Part shown: in pieces, positions 6,573-22,554 of the stretch
How positions within the stretch are numbered: position 1 is the first letter of the stretch
Layout: the number at the start of each line of letters is the position of its first letter
NCBI GenBank assembly: GCA_003553245.1
Contig: PWDX01000221.1
Location: forward strand, 1-45,458
Direction of reading: 5' to 3'
DNA: 45,458 bases
DNA from: Phycisphaerae bacterium
GTDB lineage: Bacteria; Planctomycetota; Phycisphaerae; Sedimentisphaerales; Anaerobacaceae
The notes under the pieces: model-generated
Databases searched by the model: none
The model's input: only the letters and a program-made list of their open reading frames with translations
Told to the model about the DNA's origin: nothing
Position numbers and translations under genes: made by a program

Positions 6573-8279
6573 ATGAGTTTTGCTTTAGGCGCCGGAGTAA
6601 CAGGTTTGCAGGCACACCAGAAGATGCTTGATGTAGCGGGCAATAATCTTGCGAATATGAACAGCACCGCCTATAAGGCTAAGAATATTACCTTTGCCGA
6701 GTTGCTAAGCCAGACTCAGAGGTCGGCTACGCAACCAACAGGCACTGTCGGTGGTACTAACCCCCATCAGATGGGAACCGGCGTAGGCATAGCGAATATC
6801 AATGCTAATATGACACAGGGAGATATCGACAGCACGGGCAATCCTCTCGATATGGCAATAGAGGGTGAGGGGTATTTTGTTCTAAGTGACGGTCAGCAGA
6901 ATGTTTTCACCCGAGCAGGAGAATTTGGCGTCGATTCAGCTTCAAATCTTGTTGACCCTGCCACCGGTTATAAGGTTCAGCGAATAGGTTCTACTGGCGA
7001 GGAGGACAATTTCCAAGTGCCTGGCGACAGTAATATTCGCATTCCTTATGATGCGGCGATGCCGGCTAAGGCGACCGAGTCTATAAGACTGGCAGGTAAT
7101 CTAAGCGCCGATAATGTTCTATCCACAACGCAGACACAAATGCTTGATTCGGCTGTAAGTTACAGCTTCGACGGCAGCACTGCAGACGGTTCAAGCAGAA
7201 TTGACGATTTAGACCAGTTCACGGGAGGACAATTAGGGGCCGGCCAAAGCGGAATCATCAGCATAGCTGGTATAACTCGCGACGGCCAGTCACTGTCCGA
7301 CTATATCATTGACAGGGACGGCAATGATAATGCTCTGAGTTTTGAAATTGATGAAAACGGTCAAACTCTAAATGATTTCATCGACCATCTTAATAATGAT
7401 GTATTTGATGGTATCGCCACCGCGGAGCTTGTCAACGGCAGGATACGCGTTACAGACAGCCAGAGCGGGTACAGCAAGCTGGATATGGACTTTTCATACA
7501 GCGGTGACGGTAATCTCCAGACACCGAGCTATTTCGAGATGACCACAGTGGGCGGCGATGAAGTTCAGAATATCAATATTACGACCTACGACAGTCAAGG
7601 TAGCAAGCAGGTTCTTGCAGGTTCCTTTGTTCGGACCAACACCGAAAATGTATGGGATCTGGTACTGACCTCAATCACCGGGAATGTGCAAAATATCGAT
7701 ATGTCGGACAGGCGAATCGAGCAGATTAATTTCGATTCACATAACGGAGCTTTTATGGGGGTCGAAGGTGACAATGATGAGTTTACGATCACATTTGGAC
7801 ATGATACCGATAATCCTCAGAGAATATCGCTTGATATGGGCACTGCAGGCCATCTTGATGGACTGACTCAATTTGCCGGTGACAGCACTGCGGTCGCCAG
7901 AGAGCAGGACGGTTATGAAGCCGGAAGCCTTTCAACGGTTTCGGTCAGTAATGAAGGTATAATTATCGGTGCATTTTCAAATGGTATCCGTAAGGATATA
8001 GCGGCTGTTCAGATAGCACAATTTCAGAATCCTGCGGGACTTGAGAGTGTAGGTGATGGTTACTTCCTTTCTTCGGCAAATTCCGGCGAACCCGTAGCGA
8101 CCCAGGCTATGGCCGGCGGCGCGGGGACTATTCATGGCAGCTCGCTTGAAAAGTCAAATGCCGATGTTGCCAGTGAGTTTGTCAATATGATTCAGGCCCA
8201 GAACGGATTTCAAGCCAATGCAAGGACTATTCGGGTAGCTAACGATGTACTTACTGAATTAACCAATCTGATAAGATAA
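6573..8279 (+). CDS. flgE: Flagellar hook protein FlgE
   Basis: FlgE forms the hook, the universal joint linking rod and filament. The 568 residues begin with the axial-protein signature (GLQAHQKMLDVAGNNLANMNSTAYKA style; here in full at residues 11-35) and end with a heptad-rich D0 helix (SSLEKSNADVASEFVNMI and LTELTNLIR). It is longer than the roughly 400-residue enterobacterial hook protein because of surface domains. Residues 208-328 form an inserted module that is clearly similar to residues 218-323 of FliD encoded at 18992. A GGAG ribosome binding site precedes the ATG. The LAGNLSAD and FMGVEGDND regions fit the D1/D2 hook domains. Confidence 0.95.
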   Translation: MSFALGAGVTGLQAHQKMLDVAGNNLANMNSTAYKAKNITFAELLSQTQRSATQPTGTVGGTNPHQMGTGVGIANINANMTQGDIDSTGNPLDMAIEGEGYFVLSDGQQNVFTRAGEFGVDSASNLVDPATGYKVQRIGSTGEEDNFQVPGDSNIRIPYDAAMPAKATESIRLAGNLSADNVLSTTQTQMLDSAVSYSFDGSTADGSSRIDDLDQFTGGQLGAGQSGIISIAGITRDGQSLSDYIIDRDGNDNALSFEIDENGQTLNDFIDHLNNDVFDGIATAELVNGRIRVTDSQSGYSKLDMDFSYSGDGNLQTPSYFEMTTVGGDEVQNINITTYDSQGSKQVLAGSFVRTNTENVWDLVLTSITGNVQNIDMSDRRIEQINFDSHNGAFMGVEGDNDEFTITFGHDTDNPQRISLDMGTAGHLDGLTQFAGDSTAVAREQDGYEAGSLSTVSVSNEGIIIGAFSNGIRKDIAAVQIAQFQNPAGLESVGDGYFLSSANSGEPVATQAMAGGAGTIHGSSLEKSNADVASEFVNMIQAQNGFQANARTIRVANDVLTELTNLIR

Positions 8280-8284
8280 CGGAG

Positions 8285-9574
8285 ATGACAACATTACCTG
8301 AGACAGCTACGAGATGGTTTATTCTGTCTTTGACGCCTCTTGAAAGGCTGGAAGCGGCCACAAACCTGGCAGGAGGTGATCTTCTGCGCCAGCGATGGTT
8401 CATTGCATCAGGGCTGGTCACTATCGCTGTCCTGGGTGTTCTGTTTTTTATTGTAACATATCGACGAAAAAGTCAGGATTACCGAGCCAGTGAAGCTGCA
8501 TTTTATGCGTCGGCACAAAAACGCGGATTAAATTCAGATGAATGTAAGATACTCCGCGAGATTGCCGAGCGTGCGGGTCTGTCACAATACGAAACCATAT
8601 TTACAATGGACAAAGCTTTCAATGTTGGAGCAAGTCTGATTATAGAAGAGGCATTACTTCGCAAGCCTGGCCGACAAAGCGCCAATCTCCGTCGCAACAT
8701 TGCTTTTCTGCGTCAGAAACTCGGCTTTCAGGAACGGACAAGCTATGCGATGAAAATGAAGAAACTAAGCAGCAGGCAAATCCCCGTTGGTAAAAAGCTT
8801 CATATCACTCGTCGTTTAAACCCGGACCGTCAGTCAACGGATTTGGAATGTACTCTTATACGAAATAATGAAATGGAGCTTGTTATTCGCCTGCCTTTAC
8901 GGGTTGAGACCGAGCCGGGCGAGTTTTGGCGTGTTTATTATCATCTGGGAGCCTCGGTATGGGAATTTGACAGCACGGTCGTCGATTATAATGGCTTTGA
9001 GCTTTCACTTAGCCATAGTGACGAAATCCGCTACATCAATCGGCGTAGATTCTTGCGTGTCCCTGTGCGTAAGCAAGGCTTTATAGGTAAATTCCCGTTT
9101 CAAAAAATTCATCGTAAATCTGTAAAAAAAATCGACATTCCACCTGTTGACAGAACAAGCTTTGGAGAGGTCGCAGACTGGGGTCTCCCGAAGTTTGTGC
9201 CTGCTATTATTACCGAACTTGCCGGGCCGGGACTTAGAGTAGAAGCAGATATTGATGTGAAAGTCGGCGACAGAGTTCTTGTTGCTTTCAAAATCGATGA
9301 AACACCTGTCAGGAATAAAAGAGGAATCAAGCAAGAACAACTGGTTGATGTAAAATTGTTTGAGGAGTTAGGGCATGTTCGCCATATTCAGCAGGCTGGT
9401 GAAGGGATTTCAATAGCGGTTGAGCTTGCGGTCGCAACAGACGCTGCCGTTAATGAGCTTATTCGAGCGACAAACGCCGAGGCTGTTCGCGCTCACGCCG
9501 AACATCAGGATCAGATTGAGCACGACGCTGCGGAATCGGAAGTAGTGCATGCATCGGGAGGAAGCGATGTCTGA
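8285..9574 (+). CDS. Membrane-anchored PilZ-domain protein, putative c-di-GMP receptor
   Basis: A 429-residue protein that I recognise only by its PilZ region. Residues 39-58 form one transmembrane helix (FIASGLVTIAVLGVLFFIV). Residues 60-160 are charged and helical. Residues 165-245 resemble the N-terminal barrel of YcgR-like proteins. The PilZ signature follows: R254-x3-R258 in NRRRFLRVPV, and ELAGPG (311-316) in place of the usual [DN]-x-[SA]-x-x-G, so c-di-GMP binding is likely but has E in place of D/N. It sits between flgE and flgF in the hook operon and overlaps flgF by 8 bases. YcgR proteins brake or bias the motor; a similar role is an inference. The GGAG motif touches the ATG, so translation may rely on coupling from flgE. 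Confidence 0.82.
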   Translation: MTTLPETATRWFILSLTPLERLEAATNLAGGDLLRQRWFIASGLVTIAVLGVLFFIVTYRRKSQDYRASEAAFYASAQKRGLNSDECKILREIAERAGLSQYETIFTMDKAFNVGASLIIEEALLRKPGRQSANLRRNIAFLRQKLGFQERTSYAMKMKKLSSRQIPVGKKLHITRRLNPDRQSTDLECTLIRNNEMELVIRLPLRVETEPGEFWRVYYHLGASVWEFDSTVVDYNGFELSLSHSDEIRYINRRRFLRVPVRKQGFIGKFPFQKIHRKSVKKIDIPPVDRTSFGEVADWGLPKFVPAIITELAGPGLRVEADIDVKVGDRVLVAFKIDETPVRNKRGIKQEQLVDVKLFEELGHVRHIQQAGEGISIAVELAVATDAAVNELIRATNAEAVRAHAEHQDQIEHDAAESEVVHASGGSDV

Positions 9575-10292
9575 GATGATAAAACAAGTAGGCTCAAGTA
9601 TCGAAGCTCTTCGCAAAGAGTTCGAAACCATAACACATAATCTGGCCAATGTAAACACGGCCGGGTATAAAAGACGCACCAACAGTTTTTCGAGAATACT
9701 TCAACAACACCTCGGTGAAAAAGAATCTGGTGGTGAGATTCAGCTCGAAGGCAGCTTCGATTTTAATCAGGGCGCATTAACCCAAACTCACCGCTCGCTG
9801 GATATGGCAATATACGGCAAGGGGTTTTTCGTTATCGAGACACCCGACGGGCCTGTTTATACGCGAAACGGGAGCTTTCAATTGAACCAGAACGGCCAGC
9901 TTGTTGACGGTTTAGGCAGGCTGGTCGCCGGTGAGGCAGGGCCTATTGGTTTACCGGCTGACACCGAGGTGTCACAAATTACGATAAGTAAGGACGGCGC
10001 GGTATCTTTTGACGGCGCAGAAGCAGGGCGGCTTAGGATAGTTGATTTCGGAGAAGACGAAAAAGAGCTTGTGCCCTGCGGACATAGCAGCTTTCGAGCG
10101 CGTAACGACGCCGAACCGGAACCAGCACAAAATGCTGTGATCAAACAGGGCTATCAGGAAGCAAGCAATGTCCAAATGATAGAAGAGCTTGTTGATATGA
10201 TTATGGTAAGCAGACTTTACGAAGCGAATATGAAAATGATAACAGGCACAACCGAAGCCACAAGAAGCCTTATGAGCGTGGCCATGGGATAA
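9567..10292 (+). CDS. flgF: Flagellar basal-body rod protein FlgF
   Basis: FlgF is a proximal/distal junction rod subunit of the flagellar basal body. The 241-residue protein starts with the axial D0 segment ETITHNLANVNTAGYKRR and has the GALTQTHRSLDMAIYGKGFF block common to FlgF/FlgG, then a C-terminal D0 helix (SNVQMIEELVDMIMVSRLYE). It is shorter than FlgG in the next gene and lies before it, the usual flgF-flgG order. The ATG at 9567 has a GGGAGG ribosome binding site five bases upstream, which decides against an in-frame ATG at 9549. The start overlaps the end of the PilZ gene. Confidence 0.9.
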   Translation: MSEMIKQVGSSIEALRKEFETITHNLANVNTAGYKRRTNSFSRILQQHLGEKESGGEIQLEGSFDFNQGALTQTHRSLDMAIYGKGFFVIETPDGPVYTRNGSFQLNQNGQLVDGLGRLVAGEAGPIGLPADTEVSQITISKDGAVSFDGAEAGRLRIVDFGEDEKELVPCGHSSFRARNDAEPEPAQNAVIKQGYQEASNVQMIEELVDMIMVSRLYEANMKMITGTTEATRSLMSVAMG

Positions 10293-10325
10293 TTGTGTTT
10301 CTGTTAAATCGTTAAGGAGAATCTT

Positions 10326-11111
10326 ATGTTAAGAGCTTTTTCAACAGCGGCAACGGGAATGTCGGCACAGCAGCGAATGGTCGATGTAACCTCACATAAT
10401 CTTGCGAATATTAATACATCTGGCTTTAAGCGAAGCCAGATAAACTTTCAGGATTTGTTATATGATAAGATGCGCCAGCCCGGTGCGGAAGTTGCATCCG
10501 GAATAATATCACCAAGCGGAAAGGAAATTGGAAGCGGCGTAAAAGTAGCCGGGACAGTCAAAGTTTTCTCACCCGGAGAGCCTCAGAATACCGGCAGAAA
10601 GATGGATATCGCCATTCAGGGTGACGGATTTTTGCAGGTAAGCACCCCTAACGGCGACCTGCGTTATACGCGCGACGGTGCGCTTCAAATAAATGCCGAT
10701 GGCCAGATAGTTACCGGAACAGGGTATATTGTTGAGCCTTCAATATCAGTTCCTCGTGACGCTGTATCGGTGGATATCGGAAAAGACGGAACAGTCAATG
10801 TAACCGACCAAAACGGTAATACCAGCTCGGTGGGGCAACTGCGTCTGGCAAAATTTATAAATCCCTCCGGCTTATCCAGCGAAGGCGATAATCTACTTGC
10901 CGAGACCGAGGCAAGCGGATCGCCTACAGAGGGAACCGCCGGAGAAAGAGGTTTCGGTACTATACAATCCGGCTTTCTTGAAAAGTCCAATGTCGAAATG
11001 ATAACCGAGCTTGTTAATCTCATCACGGCTCAACGGGCTTATGAAACTAATAGTCGTGCAATACAGGCCGGTGACGGAATGCTGCGCACGGCAAACCAGA
11101 TAGTAACTTAA
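10326..11111 (+). CDS. flgG: Flagellar distal rod protein FlgG
   Basis: FlgG builds the distal rod of the basal body. At 261 residues it has exactly the usual length. Features are the N-terminal TAATGMSAQQRMVDVTSHNL helix, NLANINTSGFKRSQINFQDLLY, the LDI-type GRKMDIAIQGDGFLQV block, and the C-terminal QSGFLEKSNVEMITELVNLI followed by QRAYETNSRAIQ. AAGGAG lies in front of the ATG. It is followed at ten bases by flgA, an order (flgF-flgG-flgA-flgH-flgI-flgJ) common in bacteria outside the enterics. Confidence 0.97.
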   Translation: MLRAFSTAATGMSAQQRMVDVTSHNLANINTSGFKRSQINFQDLLYDKMRQPGAEVASGIISPSGKEIGSGVKVAGTVKVFSPGEPQNTGRKMDIAIQGDGFLQVSTPNGDLRYTRDGALQINADGQIVTGTGYIVEPSISVPRDAVSVDIGKDGTVNVTDQNGNTSSVGQLRLAKFINPSGLSSEGDNLLAETEASGSPTEGTAGERGFGTIQSGFLEKSNVEMITELVNLITAQRAYETNSRAIQAGDGMLRTANQIVT

Positions 11112-11121
11112 AAGGTGTTTT

Positions 11122-12087
11122 ATGAGAAAATATAGAAAACTTATACCTCTGATGACACTGCTTTTTTTGTCGGCATCCGCTGTTAAAGCCCAAGACACTG
11201 CAACCGTGTATCTGCCGCGAGAAGTAACGGTTAATAGCAGCGATGTTGTCCTCGATGATGTAGCTATCATATCCGGAGATAACGAAATAGCTCAAGCTGC
11301 CGGGGCGGTATCTCTGGGAAACTTTAATCGTGCTGACCAGAATCTTGTTCTGGACAGAGCCGTGATTATGAGCAGGCTCAGTTCAGAAGGCATAAGCAGA
11401 AATTCCTTTCGGATAACAGGGGCCAAGCGTGTTACAGTAAACAGAAAAAATAAAGTAATAGATTCCGAGAAGATCATCGCTGGCGCCAGGCGATATTTGA
11501 AAAACAATTTTGAGTCTTCAGGTTGGGCAGAACTTGCCCAGGTCGGTTCCTGTGATGACCTTACCGTGGGTGCGGGTGTTGGTGAATTGGAGCTTTATTA
11601 CAGGCTTGTCAGCGCCGACGAAAACAGTGCTGCCGTAGGCGTTGATATTTATGCCGACGACGAAAAGCTTGCAGAGCGTGTAATCCGCTTCCGGGGTAAA
11701 TACGAAAGGCGTGTAGCAATAACTAAAGAGAGAGTCCAGACGGGGGAAGTTTTAACCCCGGAAAATGTGAAGATAGAAAAAAGACTTTCCGATACTCCTC
11801 AATCCGGCGGTTGGCGAGAGCCTTTTGGAATGGTGGCAAGGCGCGACCTCGCCCCCGGCACAGAGCTTAATTCGCAGGTTACCGGCAGGGCGGAATCGCC
11901 GAAGGTTGTCGAGCGTAACGAGCGAGTCGTGATAAAAATTAACACCGGCGGACTGAAAATTACCGCCCAGGGTCAGGCTTTACAGCAAGGACGGGTCGGT
12001 GAGCAGATATGGGTTCGTAACAGTGATTCACAAAAAAGGCTGCCGGCCATAGTAAGAGAAGACGGAAGTGTTGAACCGGTATTTTAA
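11122..12087 (+). CDS. flgA: Flagellar P-ring assembly chaperone FlgA
   Basis: FlgA is a periplasmic chaperone that helps FlgI assemble the P-ring. The 321-residue precursor has a signal peptide ending near AVKAQD (residues 20-25). The C-terminal part contains a SAF-type domain, with VQTGEVLTPENVKIE and the DLAPGTELNSQV stretch, ending in the FlgA-typical IKINTGGLKITAQGQALQQG. The N-terminal half (residues 30-190) is less conserved and longer than in Escherichia coli FlgA (about 220 residues in total). Position between flgG and flgH-flgI supports the assignment. Confidence 0.9.
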   Translation: MRKYRKLIPLMTLLFLSASAVKAQDTATVYLPREVTVNSSDVVLDDVAIISGDNEIAQAAGAVSLGNFNRADQNLVLDRAVIMSRLSSEGISRNSFRITGAKRVTVNRKNKVIDSEKIIAGARRYLKNNFESSGWAELAQVGSCDDLTVGAGVGELELYYRLVSADENSAAVGVDIYADDEKLAERVIRFRGKYERRVAITKERVQTGEVLTPENVKIEKRLSDTPQSGGWREPFGMVARRDLAPGTELNSQVTGRAESPKVVERNERVVIKINTGGLKITAQGQALQQGRVGEQIWVRNSDSQKRLPAIVREDGSVEPVF

Positions 12088-12100
12088 CAGGAGCAGTTTT

Positions 12101-12715
12101 ATGTTGAAAAAAATGATATTATTAACTCTGATTGGTCTGTTTCTTTGCATTCAGGCAGAAACCTCGGCAAATTCAATATGGGCAAGACGAAGCAAAGACG
12201 CTCCGATGCCTTATGCCGATGATACTTCAAGAAATATCGGCGATGTATTGACGATTTTGATCGATGAAAGAAGCGCAGTTGAAAATGAGGTTGAAAGGCT
12301 TCTCGATCGAAGCGCCCAGCGAGAGCATAATTTTGACGGAAACCTTAATATAGATAATATTACTCCAAGAATGCCTGGCTTTACTATGGAGGCAAGCTCC
12401 AGCAATACACTTGACGGCAGAGCCGAATATGAGGATGCGCGGCGTTTTACAGATGCTATAACTGTAACGGTCATAGATGTTTTACCTAACGGTAATCTTG
12501 TCGTGCTGGGCGAGCGAAACAGGGAAACCGGCGGAGATCCGCATGTTCTGGAAATAAGCGGAATCGTAAGACCAAGCGATATTGGTTATGATAACACTAT
12601 TGAGAGTCAGCGTGTCGCCAACTTCAATGTAGTTGCCAGAGGGGACGGAATCTCCGAACCTTACACCAGGCCAGGCTGGCTTGGAAGGATATTCGATGTT
12701 CTCTGGCCGTTCTGA
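12101..12715 (+). CDS. flgH: Flagellar L-ring protein FlgH
   Basis: FlgH forms the outer-membrane L-ring bushing. Typical features are SIWARRSKDAPMPYADDTSR, the NIGDVLTILIDERS strand-helix, the DVLPNGNLVVLGERN block and SGIVRPSDIGYDNTIESQRVA (all FlgH signatures). The start at 12101 is chosen because an AGGAG motif lies 7-8 bases upstream and because it exposes a signal peptide at the N-terminus; an in-frame ATG at 12068 lies inside flgA. FlgH is usually a lipoprotein, but here the only early cysteine is in LFLC-IQ, which is not a good lipobox; cleavage by signal peptidase I near TSA-NS looks more likely. The protein has 204 residues. Confidence 0.93.
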   Translation: MLKKMILLTLIGLFLCIQAETSANSIWARRSKDAPMPYADDTSRNIGDVLTILIDERSAVENEVERLLDRSAQREHNFDGNLNIDNITPRMPGFTMEASSSNTLDGRAEYEDARRFTDAITVTVIDVLPNGNLVVLGERNRETGGDPHVLEISGIVRPSDIGYDNTIESQRVANFNVVARGDGISEPYTRPGWLGRIFDVLWPF

Positions 12716-12747
12716 ACCACAGCGAGCATAGCTTAGAAGGGGATAAT

Positions 12748-13851
12748 ATGAAAAGCCATTTAATCGCGATAGTCTTAGCTATCCTGTTGTCCGGCGCTGC
12801 TAATGGCGAGAGGATAAAGGATATCGTGGAAGTTCACGGCGTAAGAGGCAACCCTCTTACCGGTATAGGTCTGGTTGTGGGTTTGGCTGATACAGGCGAT
12901 ACATCGCTGCCTTCACGACAAATGCTTAATAATATACTTCGCAGGTCAGGCCAGGTACTAACTCCCGATCAGATCGAGGGCGGAAATATCGCGATGGTAA
13001 TGGTTACGGCTGAGCTGGGTCCCTTTGACAGAGAAGGTTCTCGGATTGATGTAAATGTTTCCTCGATTGGCGACGCCGACAGCTTGCAGGGCGGAGTATT
13101 GCTGCCTACCCCACTGGAAGGACTTGACGGGCGAGTTTACGCTGTCGCACAGGGCGGGCTGTCACTGGGTGGATGGCGAGCAGCAGGCGAAGAAGCGGCT
13201 ATTACAAAAAACCATCAGACCGTAGGCAGAGTGCCCGGCGGGGCAACTGTCGAGCAAAGTGCACTGGCTAATTTTATTAATTATGCTCAGGGAAGGCGAT
13301 ACATCAAACTCAATCTGATAAACAATGATTTCACAACCGCCCAGCGAATCAGCGAAGCGATAAACCATGACAACAACGATGCCGCGACGGTGCTGGATGC
13401 GGGCACGGTTCGTGTTCAAATCCCCGACAACATAGCCGACAGAGATGTGATAAAGTTTATGACCGAGATTATGGATCGTCGCGTTGTCGTGGATATGCCT
13501 GCCGTTGTGGTGATTAACGAGAGAACCGGTACGATAGTTGTTGGTCAGAATGTTGGAATATCACAGGTGGCAATTTCGCAGGGAAGCCTTGTAGTAACGG
13601 TTCAGGAAACGGCCAGGGTCTATCAGCCGACCGCGCCTTTCTCTGACGCAGGCACCACCGAGGTTGTCCCCGAAACACTTATAGAGGTAGAGGAGCAGGA
13701 ACAAACGCTCATACCAATGCCCGAAATAGTGACGGTCTCAGAACTTGCGACAGCACTGAACGCAATAGGAGCTACACCGCGTGATCTTATAGCTATATTC
13801 AACGCTTTGAAAGAGGCCGGTGCGCTTCAGGCACAATTGAAAATAATGTGA
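12748..13851 (+). CDS. flgI: Flagellar P-ring protein FlgI
   Basis: FlgI forms the P-ring around the rod in the periplasm, implying a peptidoglycan layer beneath an outer membrane. The 367-residue precursor has a signal peptide (residues 1-20, ending NGE). The mature start RIKDIVEVHGVRGNPLTGIG and the following LVVGLADTGD are family signatures, as are VSSIGDADSLQGGVLLPTPL and the C-terminal TVSELATALNAIGATPRDLI. AAGGGG precedes the ATG. It sits between flgH and the rod-binding gene. Confidence 0.97.
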   Translation: MKSHLIAIVLAILLSGAANGERIKDIVEVHGVRGNPLTGIGLVVGLADTGDTSLPSRQMLNNILRRSGQVLTPDQIEGGNIAMVMVTAELGPFDREGSRIDVNVSSIGDADSLQGGVLLPTPLEGLDGRVYAVAQGGLSLGGWRAAGEEAAITKNHQTVGRVPGGATVEQSALANFINYAQGRRYIKLNLINNDFTTAQRISEAINHDNNDAATVLDAGTVRVQIPDNIADRDVIKFMTEIMDRRVVVDMPAVVVINERTGTIVVGQNVGISQVAISQGSLVVTVQETARVYQPTAPFSDAGTTEVVPETLIEVEEQEQTLIPMPEIVTVSELATALNAIGATPRDLIAIFNALKEAGALQAQLKIM

Positions 13852-13860
13852 GGTATAATT

Positions 13861-14226
13861 ATGGATATAAGCAAAACGCTGCTTATGGAGCAGATAGGCC
13901 ATTCTAGTAAATTGCCTAACGCGGACAACCACCAGAATCTCGAAGAAGCTCGAAAGAAAGAAATAGCGAAAGAGTTCGAGAGCGTTTTAATCGAGAAGCT
14001 GATGGATAATGTAAAAGACAGCGTCAATTGCATCGGAGAAGAGAAAGACGCCGCCGCACAGCAGATTGACGGAATGTTCTGGAGTCTGCTTGGAAGGGAG
14101 CTTGGACAACAGGGTGGCTTTGGGCTTTGGAAAGATGTTCATCAGTTTCTTGAGGACAATGCCGGTCAGGTAGAAAATAATCAGGCCGAGTCCGAACAGG
14201 GACAATCAATAGACAAGGTCGGGTAA
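13861..14226 (+). CDS. flgJ: Rod-binding protein, FlgJ N-terminal domain only
   Basis: A 121-residue protein matching the rod-binding domain of FlgJ: KEIAKEFESVLIEKLMDNVK and the AAQQIDGMFWSLLGRELGQQGGFGLW stretch (residues about 65-90). The muramidase domain found in enterobacterial FlgJ is absent, which is normal for many phyla where a separate enzyme opens the peptidoglycan. The C-terminus is a polar Glu/Gln-rich tail. GAGG lies upstream of the ATG. Its stop codon overlaps the flgN start by one base (TAATG). Confidence 0.85.
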   Translation: MDISKTLLMEQIGHSSKLPNADNHQNLEEARKKEIAKEFESVLIEKLMDNVKDSVNCIGEEKDAAAQQIDGMFWSLLGRELGQQGGFGLWKDVHQFLEDNAGQVENNQAESEQGQSIDKVG

Positions 14227-14741
14227 TGACAGCCGATATGATACGACAAAAAACATCCCAATTGCTCAGTGTGCTTGATAAGGATATCGAGCACATTGAG
14301 CAGACATTGTATCGTCTTGATGAATTAAGGTCTCTGGTGATAAAGCGGGACGCAAAGTCTCTTGAAGTCCTGCTTGAGAACATTCAGGTCGATGCCGACG
14401 GCTATGCTCAAACAGAAGCCCAGCGGCATCAGTTGAGATGCGAAATTGCCGAGCTTCTTGGCCGCGATGTTAATCGGTTTAGGCTCGGTGAATTGGCCGA
14501 GATACTCGGTGAGCCTTCGGCAACGCCGCTTATGAAAAAGCGACAAACTCTGCGACAACTGGCAGAAAAGCTGATAACCGAGCATAAAGCAACTGCGATG
14601 CTGTTGGCCGAATGCGCCAGATTCAATGGAGAGCTTTTGAGCAGACTGATTCGTGCGGTGTCAAATAATTCGGTAACATACGGGCGAACAGGGAAAACAA
14701 GTAAGCAAAACGAAGCGGCATTTATGAATATGGAGTTTTAA
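14226..14741 (+). CDS. flgN: FlgN-like export chaperone for hook-associated proteins
   Basis: A 171-residue, largely helical protein without signal peptide. Sequence conservation of FlgN is weak; the call rests on size, helical heptads (residues 8-70 and 100-145), and position directly before flgK and flgL, whose products FlgN escorts to the export gate. Translation is coupled to the rod-binding gene by a TAATG overlap. FlgN normally docks on the cytoplasmic domain of FlhA, which is not encoded in the FlhA-like gene of this window, making this chaperone's docking partner an open question. Confidence 0.75.
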   Translation: MTADMIRQKTSQLLSVLDKDIEHIEQTLYRLDELRSLVIKRDAKSLEVLLENIQVDADGYAQTEAQRHQLRCEIAELLGRDVNRFRLGELAEILGEPSATPLMKKRQTLRQLAEKLITEHKATAMLLAECARFNGELLSRLIRAVSNNSVTYGRTGKTSKQNEAAFMNMEF

Positions 14742-14749
14742 GGTATCTG

Positions 14750-16717
14750 ATGGATAGTTTCTCAATAGGCATAAGCGGACTCGGCGCCGCCCAGAAAGGG
14801 CTTGATATTGTCGGCAACAATATCGCTAACGCCGCGACACCGGGCTACCATCGCCAGCGGATAAATCTTAACCCCAGCAGGCTCGTTGAGATGGGTGATA
14901 CGCTTATCGGAGGCGGAGTCGATTTTGCCGGGACAACGCGTATTGTAGATTCATTTCTTGAAGGCGAGATAACCCGCCAGCAATCAACTCTCGGAGAAAT
15001 CGACCAGCAGCTTCAGACGCTTCGCACATTGGAGACTGCTTTTGGAGAATTATCAGCGGGCGAGGGTCTTAGTGAAGCAATAGATGAGTTCTATAATTCG
15101 GTAGAGGAACTTAGCAGATATCCTAATGACAGTATCTGGCAAAATAATGCCCTAAGCTCGGCAAAAGCGATGACGGGCAAGTTTCGCAATCTCTCTGCCT
15201 CCATAAGCGACCTAAAGCAACAGTCGGCGCTGGAGGCCAATGGAACCATCGACCAAATAAATACTCTTGCAGGACAGATTGCCGAGTTGAATTCTGAGAT
15301 ACAATCCGCCGCCGTCCAGGACACCACATTAAATAACACAATGGACCAGCGGGATCAGAGAATTAAAGAACTTGCCGAACTTATCGGTATTGATACTATT
15401 GAGCGGCCTTATGGCGTTATTGATGTTGCTGTAAGCGGAATACCGCTTGTTTCAGGCACCAGTGCCACAGAACTTAGTGCAGGATTAAATGATCAGGGCA
15501 AGCTCGGCCTGGCGGTCGAAGGCGAGGTTGATTTTCGCAGGTTGGCCACCGGTGGGACACTCGGCGGATTGATGAAGCTTCATAATGAACACTTGACAAC
15601 AGCGCAAAGCGATCTCGACAAACTCGCTAATACAATAGCCGGTAGCCTGAATGAATTGCACACAATGGGAGTCGGCTCTTCGGGCTCTTTTACCAACCTG
15701 ACCGGCGACACAACGCGAAAAGAACAGCTTTCTCAAATGCAGCCGCCTATAAGTGACGGAACAATATATATACGAGTTACCGACACCGAAACCGGCCAGA
15801 TCACTCGCCAGGAAGTGCCGATTGATGCAGCTAATGATACTCTTTCCGATGTAGCTGATTATATAACGAACAATATCGACGGAATAAATGCCAATATTGT
15901 TTCATCTCAACTTAAAATCCAGGCCGAGTCGGGATATGAATTTGATTTTATGCCGGCTGTTCTGCCTGAACCAACGAGTGTTTCATTCAGCGGGGATGTT
16001 GAGCAGCCGGAGATTTCACTGTCCGGTGTTTACAGCGAGATGGCTAATAAGACTTATACATTTGAGGTCAGCGGCAGCGGCTCCGTAGGAAATGGGGAGC
16101 TAAAGCTCCAGGTTACAGACAGCAATAATGAAAATGTCACTGAGCTTGATATTGGATCAGGCTATGCGGCAGGGACAAAGCTTGATGTTGGAAACGGAAT
16201 AAAAATAGCCCTTACACCGGGGGAGTTTGAGGCCGGTGACAGCTTTGAAGTAGCTGCCACAGGCATTACAGATACTTCTGGGCTGCTCACTGCCGCCGGT
16301 ATTAACACCTTTTTTACGGGCAGTAAAGCTTCGGATTTATATGTGCATGACGATATAATCGATGCACCCGACCGTATCGCGACATCAATAGGCCCTGGCA
16401 AGACCGACAATGAAAATGTATTGCGAATGGCCGCCCTGAAAGACCGCAACTTTGAGGAACTTAACAGGCTTAGCCCGAGAGAGTTTTACCGAAGAATGGT
16501 TACAGAAATAGGCCAGGAAATAGAATCTCAGAGCATGCGTCGTGATAACACCGAAGCCGTTATCAAAAACCTTGATAACCAGATACAGGAAATCAGCGGT
16601 GTGGATATAAACGACGAAGCAGCGAAAATGCTCCTTTATCAGCAGATGTTTCAGGGAATGTCACGATATTTGAACACTGTCCAGGGTTCACTGCAAACCT
16701 TGATGGAAAGCATGTAA
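14750..16717 (+). CDS. flgK: Flagellar hook-associated protein 1 FlgK
   Basis: FlgK is the first junction protein between hook and filament. The 655-residue protein has the N-terminal axial motif GLGAAQKGLDIVGNNIANAA with the TPGYHRQRINLNP extension and the C-terminal D0 helix with GVDINDEAAKMLLYQQMFQG. Residues 331-398 form a beta-rich insert that resembles Flagellin_IN-type modules (DGTIYIRVTDTETG followed by a LSDVADYITNNIDGI helix), related in style to the inserts of FlgE and FliD. An AAGG motif precedes the ATG. flgL follows after 25 bases. Confidence 0.95.
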   Translation: MDSFSIGISGLGAAQKGLDIVGNNIANAATPGYHRQRINLNPSRLVEMGDTLIGGGVDFAGTTRIVDSFLEGEITRQQSTLGEIDQQLQTLRTLETAFGELSAGEGLSEAIDEFYNSVEELSRYPNDSIWQNNALSSAKAMTGKFRNLSASISDLKQQSALEANGTIDQINTLAGQIAELNSEIQSAAVQDTTLNNTMDQRDQRIKELAELIGIDTIERPYGVIDVAVSGIPLVSGTSATELSAGLNDQGKLGLAVEGEVDFRRLATGGTLGGLMKLHNEHLTTAQSDLDKLANTIAGSLNELHTMGVGSSGSFTNLTGDTTRKEQLSQMQPPISDGTIYIRVTDTETGQITRQEVPIDAANDTLSDVADYITNNIDGINANIVSSQLKIQAESGYEFDFMPAVLPEPTSVSFSGDVEQPEISLSGVYSEMANKTYTFEVSGSGSVGNGELKLQVTDSNNENVTELDIGSGYAAGTKLDVGNGIKIALTPGEFEAGDSFEVAATGITDTSGLLTAAGINTFFTGSKASDLYVHDDIIDAPDRIATSIGPGKTDNENVLRMAALKDRNFEELNRLSPREFYRRMVTEIGQEIESQSMRRDNTEAVIKNLDNQIQEISGVDINDEAAKMLLYQQMFQGMSRYLNTVQGSLQTLMESM

Positions 16718-16742
16718 ATAATAACATTTTTCGAGGCTGAAT

Positions 16743-17930
16743 ATGAGCGGTACGCTTAGCAGTATGTATAACAATGTGAGCTACTCACTATCTTCTCACA
16801 TGCGTGCAATCTCACGGCTCCAGGAGCAGGCTGCCACAGGTTCGCGCGTCAATCGCGCCTCGGACGCTCCTTTTGACGCCTATCGTGTCCTTGGTCTGGA
16901 TTCACAAGAGAGGGACTTGTCAAGTTATATTCGCAATCTTGATGACATGACTAACACGCTGGAATTTTCAAGCTCTATAGTCGAGGATATGCTTTCGTCT
17001 GTCGCTGATGTTCATACCCAGCTTACACAGATCACCAGTGGGACATATAACGAAGAGGATCGCCAAAGAATGGCCGAAGGCTTTAATGACATAATCGAAC
17101 AGACATTATCATTGGCCAATACAAAATATAAAGATCAATATCTGTTCAGTGGAGACAGCACCGCTAAGACCCCTTATGTCGCGGTTCGAGACGACCAAGG
17201 CAGAATAGTCGGGATAGAATACCAAGGCAGTGACCAGACCAGAACCACGACAGTCGCCGCCGGAGTTGCCGATTCGCCTTATTTTGTAGGTTCGGAGGTT
17301 TTCGGGGGCCGTGGTTCCGGCCAGGTAGAATTTCTCGGTGATACCGGAGTAAAAGCCGGCACTGGAACATCCAGCACAGCAGGCTACACTTGGCTGGATG
17401 TTACATATAACGAAACCGATGAAGTCTATGAGTTATCAATCGATGGCGGCCAAACCAAAATTCAGGCCGATGGAACCGATAATCAGGCAATAACTCATGG
17501 CCAGACAGGGGATGTTTTATATGTGGATACAACTTCCATCTCACAGACAGGAACCGAACTGGTAAGCACTCAGGGCAGCCACGATGTTTTTGAAACATTA
17601 ATTACAACTCGTGACATACTACAGAATGACCGAGGCCTGTCCGAAACACAAATAAAACAAATGCGAAATCACTCACTAAAAGCATTGGACGAGGTAAAAA
17701 AGACTCTTTCCAATCAGACCGTGCGGACCGGCGCCAAAATTGGTTTTCTGGACAACCTCAAACACAACCTGGACAACATGCAATTCAATGCCGAGTCTGA
17801 AAAAGCCACGATATCCGAAGCTGATATAGCTCAGGTTGTTATAGATATGACCAGGCACCAAAACCTTTACCAGATGTCCCTTGCAGTGGCTGGCAATATG
17901 ATGTCAATGTCATTGTTGAATTATATCTAA
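16743..17930 (+). CDS. flgL: Flagellar hook-associated protein 3 FlgL
   Basis: FlgL is the second hook-filament junction protein and a flagellin homologue. The 395-residue protein has the flagellin-like N-terminal coiled region (ISRLQEQAATGSRVNRASDAP, here residues 24-44, with a DDM and FSSSIVEDML helix) and the C-terminal helix SEADIAQVVIDMTRHQNLYQ with LAVAGNMMSMSLLNYI. LANTKYKDQYLFSGD is the FlgL/FlgE-like hallmark that distinguishes it from FliC. A GAGG motif precedes the ATG. It is followed after 20 bases by a TPR gene, where many bacteria have fliW and csrA instead. Confidence 0.95.
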   Translation: MSGTLSSMYNNVSYSLSSHMRAISRLQEQAATGSRVNRASDAPFDAYRVLGLDSQERDLSSYIRNLDDMTNTLEFSSSIVEDMLSSVADVHTQLTQITSGTYNEEDRQRMAEGFNDIIEQTLSLANTKYKDQYLFSGDSTAKTPYVAVRDDQGRIVGIEYQGSDQTRTTTVAAGVADSPYFVGSEVFGGRGSGQVEFLGDTGVKAGTGTSSTAGYTWLDVTYNETDEVYELSIDGGQTKIQADGTDNQAITHGQTGDVLYVDTTSISQTGTELVSTQGSHDVFETLITTRDILQNDRGLSETQIKQMRNHSLKALDEVKKTLSNQTVRTGAKIGFLDNLKHNLDNMQFNAESEKATISEADIAQVVIDMTRHQNLYQMSLAVAGNMMSMSLLNYI

Positions 17931-17950
17931 GAAATCAGGAATTATTAATA

Positions 17951-18589
17951 ATGGAACAAATACCCCGCGATATCGAAGAATACTGTGATTGGCCTCGGGA
18001 TTATAAACAGCTCCAGCAACTGGGAGACTGTTACCGATCAACAGGTGATCTTCGCAAAGCCAACGATTGCTATAACCGCGCCGCATCAGCCGATCCAGAC
18101 CAGCCGGCGCCGTATGTGGGGCTGGGAATGGTCGCTTTTCAAAAGGACGAGCCGGAAAACGCTGATATTGCGTTTCGAGTCGCTGCCAGACTCGATCCCA
18201 ACTGCTCAAAGGCATATATGGGCATTGCGATGGTGGCCCAGCAGAAAGGACTGTATAAGCAGTCTTTTGACATGTATCTTAAATCTCTGGAACTGGACAC
18301 TGATAATCTGACTTCCCTGCTGGGGCTTTTCCAGGCGTCTTGCCAGATGGGTTCTTTCGCACGGGTAATACATTTTCTCGAAGTCTATCTGAAAACACAT
18401 CCTTCGGACACTTCTGTTATGTTCTCGCTTGCGACGCTTTATATGAAAGAAAACCGCCTCGAACAGGCGGAAAAACTGCTGCAAAATATAATCCGACTCG
18501 ATAGCCAAAACAGCGATGCCGCTGATTTACTTGAAGAAGTTCAGCATGACATTGCCTGTAAAAACGCACCGGAGGTACTTGCGGTATGA
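17951..18589 (+). CDS. Cytoplasmic TPR-repeat protein of the flagellar operon
   Basis: A 212-residue protein without a signal peptide, made of about five tetratricopeptide repeats from residue 18 on; clear units are YKQLQQLGDCYRSTGDLRKA, APYVGLGMVAFQKDEPENA, AYMGIAMVAQQKGLYKQS and VMFSLATLYMKENRLEQAEK. TPR arrays bind other proteins, and TPR chaperones are known in type III secretion systems. Its place between flgL and a small helical gene ahead of fliD suggests a chaperone or assembly role in export of late substrates, but that is an inference from position. AGGA lies upstream. Its stop overlaps the next start (ATGA), so the two products are probably made together. Confidence 0.8.
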   Translation: MEQIPRDIEEYCDWPRDYKQLQQLGDCYRSTGDLRKANDCYNRAASADPDQPAPYVGLGMVAFQKDEPENADIAFRVAARLDPNCSKAYMGIAMVAQQKGLYKQSFDMYLKSLELDTDNLTSLLGLFQASCQMGSFARVIHFLEVYLKTHPSDTSVMFSLATLYMKENRLEQAEKLLQNIIRLDSQNSDAADLLEEVQHDIACKNAPEVLAV

Positions 18590-18903
18590 TAAGTCGGACT
18601 CAACCAGACAAACTTTTTGACAAGCTAAAAGAAAATCTGTGCCGCCAAATCTCGGCAGTAGAAAGAGATGATCTGGACTGCCTCGATAATGAACTGGCCG
18701 AGGCAGGGCAAATAGTGAAGCTTTTATCGGAACAAAATTGCTTTGATGATCCTGATTTTACCAGCCAGAAAGAGAATCTGAACGCACTTTACCGAAAACT
18801 GGAGCTAAGCATCGCCGTTCGGAAAACGCAAACCGATGAACAGATAAAAGAAATCAAGCGTGCCGGAAAAATGATACGGACCTACGACCAGCGATCAATA
18901 TAA
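18586..18903 (+). CDS. Small helical protein, FliT-like chaperone candidate
   Basis: A 105-residue charged, almost entirely helical protein that I cannot assign by sequence signature. Two amphipathic helices (residues 6-50 and 57-97) with Leu and Ile heptads and a Lys/Arg-rich tail resemble the build of flagellar export chaperones FliT, FliS and FlgN. Its start overlaps the TPR gene by four bases, and fliD, the client of FliT, follows after an 88-base gap. A FliT-like role is plausible from size and neighbourhood only. It could equally be a partner of the upstream TPR protein. Confidence 0.6.
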   Translation: MISRTQPDKLFDKLKENLCRQISAVERDDLDCLDNELAEAGQIVKLLSEQNCFDDPDFTSQKENLNALYRKLELSIAVRKTQTDEQIKEIKRAGKMIRTYDQRSI

Positions 18904-18943
18904 TCAAATTATTTATACTAACATTTACCCCAAAATTTGACGA

Positions 18944-18968
18944 TAAACATAATATTGTGAGCCGATAA
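18944..18968 (+). promoter_or_regulatory. Candidate sigma-28 (FliA-type) promoter of fliD
   Basis: GCCGATAA at 18961-18968 equals the sigma-28 -10 consensus, with TAAA at 18944-18947 as possible -35. The spacing between them is 13 bases, two shorter than the usual 15, so the call is tentative. It lies 23 bases before the fliD ATG, in the only sizeable gap (88 bases) of the plus-strand flagellar cluster, where a late-gene promoter makes sense. Confidence 0.42.
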
Positions 18969-18991
18969 AAATTTTTGGGCAGGGACAAATT

Positions 18992-21064
18992 ATGAGTACA
19001 ATAAATCTACCGGGCCTTTCGACCGGCATTGATACAGGACAAATCATCCAGCAGCTTATGGCTGTACAAGGCCGCAGAAAGGCCAACTACCAGGTGCAGC
19101 AGGGTGAGATGGAAGAAAAAGTAAGCGCATACAGTAACCTTCGAAATGCCATACAATCTGTTAACGGCGCCGTCGATCAGGTTTCATCCTCGGAGAATCT
19201 GACATCATTTAATACACGAGTAAGCAATGACGATGTTCTGGCGATAAGTACATCTTCAAGTGCCAGCGAAGGTACGCACAATGTACAGGTAAAACAGCGT
19301 GCCGCATCTGAGACATGGATAAATGACGGTTCAGATTTTCGGTACAAAAGCGACTATGTCGGCCAGGGGAGATTTATCTACTCATATAATGGATATGAGC
19401 GAGTTATTTCGACAGTCGAGGACGAGACCACACTTGAAGACCTCGTAAATCTTATAAATAATGACGAGAATAATCCGGGCGTAAGCGCAAGTCTTCTTAA
19501 TCAAGGCGGCAGTTACCATCTTATGCTAAGCGGAAGGCAGACCGGCACAGATTATAACATTTCTATAAATCAGAGCAACACCGAGCTTTGGACCACAACA
19601 TCCGAGCTGACTACCACGCAGGGCAGAAGGGCAGAGCTTTCTACTCGTATAAACAGGCTGGAGCAGTTCAGCGGCTCGCTGGAAGGCGGTGAGTCCATAA
19701 CAATCAGCGGAACGACTAATGACGGCACCACCGTAAGTCACGATATTGAGATACACGAAAATACAACCGTAGAGCATTTGCTCGATGGAATCAACGATGC
19801 CTATGATGGAACCGCCACAGCTGTTCTGGATCGAGGCAGGATCCGTTTGCTGGATAGCACCAGCGGTGAAAGCCTTATGACATTTGAACTCGAATACAAT
19901 CCTGGCAGTGGTGAAAGCTCATTCGACATTCCATCAACTACTCAGTCAACCGTAGGCGGCAGCGTCAATGCGGACCTGGACAGTTTTGAACCTGAGTCTT
20001 TTCTCAAAACACAGTCCGCACAAGACTCCCTGATAAAGGTAAATGGCTATCCCCCCGGCGAGGATAACTGGATAGCAAACAGTACTAATACAATAACGGA
20101 TGTTATAGGCGGCGTAACATTAGACCTTAAATCCGCTTCCGAGTACAATGAATCAACCGGCACATATCAGCCTGTCGATATCGCCATAAATAAAAACACA
20201 TCCGCTGTAAAGGATAGGCTCGAAGGTATGGTTTCGGCTTATAATGAAGCAATAAAGCTGATACTGGAGAAGACCGAATATGACCTCGAAAAGGAAGAAG
20301 CCGGAATACTCTCAGGTGAAAGCAGTGTCAGTTTTATGCGAACCAATATGCGGGCTCCGTTTGGTCGTATTGCTACCGGCTTTATAGAAACACTCGACAG
20401 CTTTGTGCAGGCGCGGGACATAGGCTTAACTGTTGACGGCAGAGGAATGCTCGAACTGGACACCGACCAATTGGAACAGGCTATTAATGAAGATTATGAA
20501 GGTGTTGTTGACCTTCTGGCCGGTAGCGGAATCGGAACCAGCAGCAACTCATCGGTGCAGTTTTACAACGCATCGGACAGAACCGAGCCGGGAACCTATA
20601 ATGTCCGTGTAGAATGCGATGACGCCGGAAATGTTACCGGAGCATGGATAAAAACCTCCTCTCAAAGCGAATGGCGAGAAATGAATGTTCAGGGTGATGT
20701 TATGCAGGGCCCTCTGAATCTTAGCAGCGATGATCCCGAACGAGGCCTTCAATTAATGTTTCATTGGGACGGTCAGGAGCATACATCCGAGAACCCCATA
20801 GAAGCGACTATAAGAGTAAAAGAGGGAATCGCAACATCACTGGACAGAACTCTCGACGAATTTCTCGAGTCAGACGGACGAATAGCTATCAGTCAGGACA
20901 ATCTCAATCGGCGGATAGACAATCTACAGGACAGAATCGACCGGGAGCAAAGACGACTCGAAACCGAGGAAAACCGATTAGTAATGCGCTACGCCAGGCT
21001 TGAAAGAACGCTTACCGAGATGCAGCAGCAAATGGAGGCAGCGGGCCTGATGGGGGGGGCTTAG
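18992..21064 (+). CDS. fliD: Flagellar filament cap / hook-associated protein 2 FliD
   Basis: FliD caps the filament and folds flagellin as it is added. The 690-residue protein starts with the family signature STINLPGLSTGIDTGQIIQQ and has the KANYQVQQGEMEEKVSAYSN coiled region; the C-terminal 60 residues form a strong coiled coil (RRIDNLQDRIDREQRRLETE). The middle contains two Flagellin_IN-like modules, residues about 130-192 and 218-323; the second is similar to the FlgE insert encoded at 6573. It is longer than the 450-500 residues of enteric FliD. AGGGA lies upstream of the ATG. A run of eight G at 21052-21059 falls in the last codons, so slippage would alter only the C-terminus. The gene ends 8 bases from a convergent gene. 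Confidence 0.95.
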   Translation: MSTINLPGLSTGIDTGQIIQQLMAVQGRRKANYQVQQGEMEEKVSAYSNLRNAIQSVNGAVDQVSSSENLTSFNTRVSNDDVLAISTSSSASEGTHNVQVKQRAASETWINDGSDFRYKSDYVGQGRFIYSYNGYERVISTVEDETTLEDLVNLINNDENNPGVSASLLNQGGSYHLMLSGRQTGTDYNISINQSNTELWTTTSELTTTQGRRAELSTRINRLEQFSGSLEGGESITISGTTNDGTTVSHDIEIHENTTVEHLLDGINDAYDGTATAVLDRGRIRLLDSTSGESLMTFELEYNPGSGESSFDIPSTTQSTVGGSVNADLDSFEPESFLKTQSAQDSLIKVNGYPPGEDNWIANSTNTITDVIGGVTLDLKSASEYNESTGTYQPVDIAINKNTSAVKDRLEGMVSAYNEAIKLILEKTEYDLEKEEAGILSGESSVSFMRTNMRAPFGRIATGFIETLDSFVQARDIGLTVDGRGMLELDTDQLEQAINEDYEGVVDLLAGSGIGTSSNSSVQFYNASDRTEPGTYNVRVECDDAGNVTGAWIKTSSQSEWREMNVQGDVMQGPLNLSSDDPERGLQLMFHWDGQEHTSENPIEATIRVKEGIATSLDRTLDEFLESDGRIAISQDNLNRRIDNLQDRIDREQRRLETEENRLVMRYARLERTLTEMQQQMEAAGLMGGA

Positions 21065-21072
21065 GTGTGATA

Positions 21073-22554
21073 TCAACGCGGCTGTTTACGCGGTGGTTTT
21101 AAAATTTGTATTCCAGCTTCTGATAAGAGTTTCTTCAGTCTGTTATATCTTTTTTCCTTGGGATTATTGCCAAAAATCATTGCCGCGTTAACTCCTTCAA
21201 GATGCCTTTTTTGAAATGAATCATCCAGCGACGGCGCATATATAATTATATGCCGGTAGCGGTGTCGCAGTTGGGTCAGGACCTTTGAAAGATACTTGGC
21301 ATTGCCTTTGAAATTACCGGCAGGCCAGAGCGAAAGGTTTTCGACGCCGCTTCTAATCGGCCTCAATCGATCTGATTCTGCTTTAATATCGAACACTTTC
21401 GAGACTGAATCACGCTTAATATCCATATCGACAAGCAGCGTCTTGCCGGACTGATCCGCCAGCGACACAGCCAGATTCACAGCAACTGTAACCGGCAAGT
21501 CCTCCGTACCAAGCGCAGCGGCCATAACTATCCGTGTCTTGTCACCACCCTGCCGCAACATATTAATCGTCGCCTGATAATCATCCTGTGAGTTATCTCC
21601 CAAAACAACGGCATTCCACAATGGAACTTTGCTGTCATTGGCCATAGCGTCTGGTTTTTCCAATCCATCATTTTCCATTTTATCCGCCTCGACCTGGCTT
21701 GCCTCGACCTTTATTCTACTGTATTTATCCTTATAAGAGTCGCTTATAGCCTCGTCGCCAACCTTTGTCAACAAAGCCCTTCGCAATATAACCCAGCATG
21801 CAAGCGTCATCATAACAAGCTTGGCCTGGCATATCAGAGCCAGTGCCGCTGCCGGCGACCAATGCTGAGCGCTTGGCAAAAGCGATTGTGCCTGCAAAGC
21901 CGCACCTGCGGCCGCAAAGGCGAAGATAAAAGGTTCCACAATGGCATCGACTACCACAAAACCGGCGGTGGCCGAAAAAGCTCTCAAAAACCCCGCCTCA
22001 CGCTCGATGTCGGCGCCAACGGTTTGGGCATCGTCAAATGTAAGCACACCTGCTGATACTTCACTTTGAAGGGCCATCTGCTTGAGTGGTGTCTCGATTT
22101 CTATTTTTTCTTTGGCGAAGCGTCGAATCCATCTAACCGTCCACAGAACAACTACTAAACAAATAATCACTAAAACCGAGACAGCCAATGAAAAAGCAAC
22201 TGAGTTTTCGCTGCCAGCTGCCTGGCCAACGGAGTCGATTATCCTTCCCGTATCAGCGGCGGTGACGATCCGCCTTGCACCTGCCAAGGCCGTAAATAAT
22301 CTCACCGCCGTAGCCAAAACTATCAACAAAGGAAACCCGCTGACCTGTAGTATCCTCCTTGCTGAAAAAGTTATCGCCACAATCCCCAAAGTCAGTGACA
22401 AGCTGAAAATAAGCACAATATCCAGCACATGACCTCTCAGCGGTACCACCAGCGCCGCTATAATCGTAACAAACGCTGTCGCGAATAAAAAATCATAACG
22501 GCCGGCGCCTCTGCCCAACTGGCCTGCACTGTCATTTTTATCATAGTCTGCCAT
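21073..22554 (-). CDS. FlhA membrane domain fused to a degenerate BY-kinase/ParA-like domain (FlhA_C absent)
   Basis: A 493-residue protein occupying the flhA place after flhB. Residues 20-266 align with the FlhA export-gate membrane domain: first helices at 23-39 and 44-65, GFPLLIVLATAVRLFTALAG (73-92; FlhA has FPSLLLxxTLFRLxLNV), a helix at 118-141, the FHIPEP loop PLKQMALQSEVSAGVL (156-171; FlhA PGKQMAIDADLNAGLI), IEREAGF, VVDAIVEP (FlhA GDAIAG) and a helix ending at 258. FlhA's IDAD reads LQSE here, so the Asp equivalent to Salmonella D208 is Glu. Residues 310-462 resemble a BY-kinase/MinD fold: LAVSLADQSGKTLLVDMDIK (Walker A') is kept, but the Walker A lysine position is V355 (LPVT) and the Walker B aspartate position is Y439. 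The FlhA cytoplasmic domain is missing. Whether it replaces or assists a normal FlhA encoded elsewhere is unknown. Confidence 0.85.
   Translation of the reverse strand: MADYDKNDSAGQLGRGAGRYDFLFATAFVTIIAALVVPLRGHVLDIVLIFSLSLTLGIVAITFSARRILQVSGFPLLIVLATAVRLFTALAGARRIVTAADTGRIIDSVGQAAGSENSVAFSLAVSVLVIICLVVVLWTVRWIRRFAKEKIEIETPLKQMALQSEVSAGVLTFDDAQTVGADIEREAGFLRAFSATAGFVVVDAIVEPFIFAFAAAGAALQAQSLLPSAQHWSPAAALALICQAKLVMMTLACWVILRRALLTKVGDEAISDSYKDKYSRIKVEASQVEADKMENDGLEKPDAMANDSKVPLWNAVVLGDNSQDDYQATINMLRQGGDKTRIVMAAALGTEDLPVTVAVNLAVSLADQSGKTLLVDMDIKRDSVSKVFDIKAESDRLRPIRSGVENLSLWPAGNFKGNAKYLSKVLTQLRHRYRHIIIYAPSLDDSFQKRHLEGVNAAMIFGNNPKEKRYNRLKKLLSEAGIQILKPPRKQPR

Follow-up and report, generated by a model that had tools for sequence, protein, structure and literature searches.

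The hook protein FlgE and the filament cap protein FliD of an uncultured planctomycete with a genome of 2.39 Mb share a segment that is one homologous domain. It is an extended Flagellin_IN (IN) domain (Pfam PF07196), i.e. a known flagellar domain type and no new kind. The explanation that we consider probable as a whole is a single old transfer from flgE to fliD, after which the two copies evolved separately, with a role of the domain in outer contacts between subunits. The window, i.e. the whole stretch of 45,458 nucleotides that was analysed, contains a flagellar gene cluster with flgD, flgE, rod genes of the flgF/G type, flgI, flgK, flgL and fliD, and flhB-fliR-fliP are located beyond fliD on the opposite strand. 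The features that are relevant here are the following:

6573..8279, + strand: flgE, hook protein, 568 aa (Pfam and NCBIfam matches, AlphaFold2 model, Foldseek matches to solved hooks)
7134..7556, + strand: IN-type D3 module of FlgE, aa 188–328 (BLASTP, hhalign, PF07196 matches of relatives, model)
15707..15937, + strand: looser IN unit in FlgK, aa 320–396 (PF07196, 18.0 bits, under the cut-off)
18992..21064, + strand: fliD, filament cap protein, 690 aa (FliD_N 11–106 and FliD_C 343–679, both over the cut-off)
19403..19531, + strand: first, diverged IN unit of FliD, aa 138–180 (PF07196 match over the cut-off)
19595..19960, + strand: IN-type module of FliD, aa 202–323, homologous to FlgE D3 (partial PF07196 match, 17.1 bits)

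When the whole proteins were compared with BLASTP, a single strong segment was obtained, in which FlgE 201–328 and FliD 211–323 are identical at 52 of 131 positions (40%, E 3e-14). The Smith–Waterman score of the two module segments is 164, and 2000 shuffles gave 34.9±6.4 with a maximum of 72. Profiles of the two module families were built for the window's order from 45 FlgE and 44 FliD proteins, with the distant family f5 left out; they align over their whole length (hhalign probability 99.8%, E 7.8e-29, 38% identity over 124 columns), and this result was reproduced in a separate script. The presence of the same module in FlgE and FliD, proposed in a preliminary description of this DNA, is therefore confirmed by the E value and the score, and all of the motifs that it listed sit on the alignment (RIDDLDQFTG/RINRLEQFSG, a helix before DG, TAELVNGRIR/TAVLDRGRIR, SG and TVGG). 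The domains are slightly wider than the segments that it named (FlgE ∼188–328 and FliD ∼202–323), and in FliD it overlooked the first, diverged IN unit. The elements common to the FlgE and FliD modules are LDQFSG, IxIxG, DGT, TTLxxLIxxIN, ATAxLxNGxIxLxD, SGxS and (T)xGG, and the positions that are conserved in both families are mostly glycines and core hydrophobic residues.

The module is assigned to the IN type because FliD and the modules of many relatives match PF07196. The whole FliD protein matches in two stretches with 30.2 bits, over the gathering cut-off of 22.7 bits, and its second module alone scores 16.7–17.1 bits, under that cut-off. Among the relatives, 17 of 39 FliD modules match when scanned alone, as do 16 of 38 FlgE modules with E values no higher than 1 (best 7.6e-6). 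The window's own FlgE has no direct match to PF07196 and is linked to the family through its profile–profile homology to a member, the FliD module. The first IN unit of FliD has a similar predicted β-β-α-β-β core. The planctomycete unit differs from the 55-position Pfam model in its size (∼125 aa) and in its presence in FlgE as well as FliD.

In FlgE, the Flg_bb_rod, D1, FlgE_D2 and Flg_bbr_C domains are all over the Pfam cut-off, and the module splits D2, such that the FlgE_D2 profile resumes at residue 334 from profile position 24. In the AlphaFold2 model of FlgE, the module is flanked by strands E170–178 and E329–339, is predicted with a pLDDT of about 79–93 over most of its length and has the order β-β-α-β-β-β. 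By analogy with other hooks, it would be an outer domain D3 that is looped out of D2 and probably located on the surface. In FliD, where FliD_N and FliD_C score 67 and 133 bits, the module would correspond to a head (cap-plate) domain. The model of the FliD segment shows the same β-β-α-β-β-β order as FlgE, in a comparison that is partly circular because FlgE modules served as its alignment; the outcome named beforehand as contrary to a shared module, unrelated predicted folds, was thus not what the models gave. In Foldseek searches with full FlgE, hooks ranked first and the module itself was not isolated. Most of the top matches of the FliD segment were FliD, FliC and the Campylobacter hook-filament junction-cap complex, all of them weak (best E 2.2e-3).

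An extra domain at this site has precedents, as the FlgE proteins of Caulobacter and Campylobacter also carry D3 within D2 (PMC5069557). The planctomycete module has its insertion site in D2 and its predicted position on the hook exterior in common with D3 and D4 of Campylobacter jejuni FlgE and with D3 of Caulobacter FlgE (PMC5069557, PMC5097172). These D3 domains were reported to differ from one another and to be without a PDB match at that time (PMC5069557, PMC5097172). The planctomycete module has no sequence similarity to any PDB chain: searches of PDB chain sequences with both module profiles returned chance matches only, and no solved planctomycete hook or cap structure was found. In three relatives (L080, L081 and L082 from genomes G048, G070 and G066), FlgE is 680–684 aa long, and its D3 module is interrupted between the TTL..LN helix and the ATA strand by a nested insertion of ∼115 aa.

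The distribution of the module was examined in a set of 80 genomes, consisting of the window's own and its relatives; relatives collected by a FlgK search were metagenome-assembled genomes named Planctomycetota, Phycisphaerales and Sedimentisphaerales. An FlgE match was found in 62 of the 80 genomes and a FliD match in 58, and outside f5 the module is present in nearly all full-length FlgE proteins of this set, and likewise in FliD. The FlgE-module profile matches 59 of 246 sampled genomes of Planctomycetota, and most of the matches that were fetched are FlgE. In several planctomycete families, the length of FlgE suggests a second, diverged unit. A Balneola FlgE, from outside the phylum, also has the module (36 bits). 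The module is old and widespread in planctomycete FlgE, occurring in many Planctomycetota families besides those of the window's order. Outside the order, the FliD-module profile unexpectedly finds FlgE and not FliD (E 1.1e-19 in G229), and often outscores the FlgE profile in doing so. FliD itself was examined in 28 genomes, including two from f5, that belong to families with such matches or to neighbouring ones. No convincing module was found among them in FliD from outside the window's class, several of these proteins being only about 460–495 aa long, and FliD of f5 and f8–f10 has weak, repeated IN-like units instead. Family f5, although placed in the same order, combines a divergent FlgE D3 with tandem IN-like units in FliD and lacks the transfer pattern.

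In a module tree of 110 rows and 135 columns, rooted on Balneola FlgE as one long outgroup branch and with unsettled bootstrap values, the FlgE and FliD modules of the order form one clade (99/95), and the other planctomycete FlgE modules are located outside it. Two long-branch rows of these other FlgE proteins are placed inside the clade. The FlgE and FliD copies form two nearly clean sets, with each group requiring two changes on the best tree. The similarity of the second FliD module to FlgE D3 (hhalign probability 99.8%) far exceeds that to the first IN unit of the same protein (25%); between the first unit and the FlgE module, the probability is 82%. These observations suggest copying from flgE to fliD. 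The direction rests mainly on the distribution, because the columns are few, the bootstrap values are unsettled and the outgroup is a single long branch. In the proposed sequence of events, the segment encoding FlgE D3 would have been copied into fliD before most families of the window's order separated and placed beside an IN unit that was already present there, and the two copies would afterwards have diverged independently. We regard as doubtful a more specific version, in which a single intragenomic transfer of the hook outer domain to the cap in this common ancestor left copies that perhaps still interact or act as templates for one another at the hook-to-filament switch.

The main alternative is vertical descent without any transfer: an ancestral axial protein would have had an IN domain that was inherited by both FlgE and FliD and lost or replaced in the FliD of other planctomycetes. 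IN-type domains do occur here in FliD, FlgK and FlgE, a fold shared by FliD, FlgK and FliC has been described structurally (PMC5072837), and the weak root of the module tree leaves room for this scenario. However, it requires repeated losses from FliD in other families, and it fits poorly with the tree, where modules from FlgE and FliD of the order cluster separately from the FlgE modules of other planctomycetes, and with the closeness of the FliD module to FlgE D3 rather than to FliD's own IN unit. We therefore regard vertical descent as rather improbable.

The presence of one domain in both FlgE and FliD has a partial parallel in Pseudomonas, in which the head domains of FliD resemble FlgK and FliC; cap, junction and filament proteins share domains there as well (PMC5072837). 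The Pseudomonas likeness is one of structure only, at 14–17% identity, and FlgE is unmentioned in the text of that report (PMC5072837), whereas planctomycete FlgE and FliD share their domain at the sequence level. Sharing of outer domains among axial proteins has previously been inferred from structures at such low identity, and here the hook and cap copies are 40% identical. No paper describing the relation between the FlgE and FliD domains was found in the literature searched, which was mainly open-access. The domain type is already known; its presence as D3 of FlgE, its sequence-level identity with the FliD head and its likely transfer from flgE to fliD were not found in these sources. If true, a single transfer would show at the sequence level that surface domains are exchanged between axial proteins on the two sides of the hook/filament boundary. 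Since the phylogenetic distribution suggests both the time and the direction of the move, domain transfer between axial genes becomes testable.

The preliminary description had also noted a looser version of the module in FlgK, and this version is real: residues 320–396 score 17.4 bits with the FlgE-module HMM and reach a probability of 93.5% in hhalign. The module HMM found no module in FlgL or in the one flagellin searched with it, and Pfam found none in FlgL or in either flagellin. The two flagellin genes of the genome are arranged in tandem (G000:C158:8370-8774 and 10577-10981) on a contig other than that of the hook-cap cluster. By eye, the D2 domain of flagellin looks faintly IN-like.

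In the finished flagellum, the module would serve as a subunit–subunit contact domain at the outer radius, stabilising the hook wall and building the cap plate. Outer contacts of this kind are its likely role by analogy with known hooks and caps. In C. jejuni, the outer rings of the hook consist of D3 and D4 of FlgE, which make additional contacts within and between protofilaments; deletion of D3 and D4 was tested, and the authors concluded that the extra domains give stability and robustness (PMC5097172). FliD D2/D3 constitute the flat head of the cap, and the head domains of Pseudomonas FliD are dispensable (PMC8533109). The alternative raised in the preliminary description was a shared outer coat that binds glycan or a sheath, i.e. 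a common patch for glycan, sheath or surface along the hook, junction and cap. Such a patch would agree with the surface exposure of hook D3 domains (PMC5097172) and with the recurrence of one domain in FlgE, FliD and, weakly, FlgK. However, flagellins, which make up most of the surface, have no module by profile, the positions kept in both families look structural, and the role known for D3 domains of this type is contact between subunits. In addition, no homology of the module to any binding domain was found in Pfam or among PDB sequences. The proposal is left unsupported, and we consider a common binding patch very unlikely. The finding identifies what kind of outer domain planctomycete hooks carry, and it speaks against a patch dedicated to glycan or sheath.

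Exchange between axial genes, as suggested earlier, is supported as one old event and not as a recent one. Under ongoing exchange or gene conversion within genomes, the flgE and fliD copies would be kept alike. The window's own pair is indeed unusually alike, each copy ranking second among all partners, and the pairing residual is positive in a few genomes (G049 and G075). Overall, however, pairs from the same genome show no significant extra closeness (permutation p = 0.066), and on the tree the FlgE and FliD modules of a given genome each group with the copies from the same gene. Furthermore, the window's flgE and fliD modules have no similarity at the DNA level, their longest exact match being 9 bases. 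Because own pairs are not significantly closer and no longer DNA run exists, nothing points to exchange in recent times. Recent gene conversion was rejected, and we consider continuing exchange highly improbable. Chance or compositional likeness can be dismissed: a composition rich in Gly, Thr and Asp is common to secreted axial proteins, but the FlgE–FliD score is ∼20 standard deviations above shuffles and the profile–profile E is about 1e-29 over 124 columns, which rules it out.

Across the phylum, FliD heads differ in size by a factor of more than two. FliD is 786–819 aa long in many relatives (e.g. L029, L031–L035), compared with 690 aa in the window, and its alignment with the window's protein is interrupted from about residue 355 onwards, which makes a further insertion after the module seem likely. 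In f5 and f8–f10 (L090–L093; L269, L271, L274, L280, L284, L286, L289 and L292), FliD reaches about 920–1200 aa, and most of these proteins have a series of several weak IN-like units; many other planctomycetes have the short form described above. Next to fliD, on the opposite strand and in line with flhB-fliR-fliP, the window encodes a 493-aa protein (21073–22554, − strand). In its first ∼210 residues, similarity is confined to the membrane part at the N terminus of FlhA (59.6 bits, positions 1–182 of 657), and its C-terminal half looks MinD/ParA-like by eye, without a clear Walker A motif. The full-length FlhA of the genome is encoded on another contig (G000:C8, 820 bits). Sequences similar to the 493-aa protein also adjoin fliD in several relatives (among L013–L019, L025 and L030).
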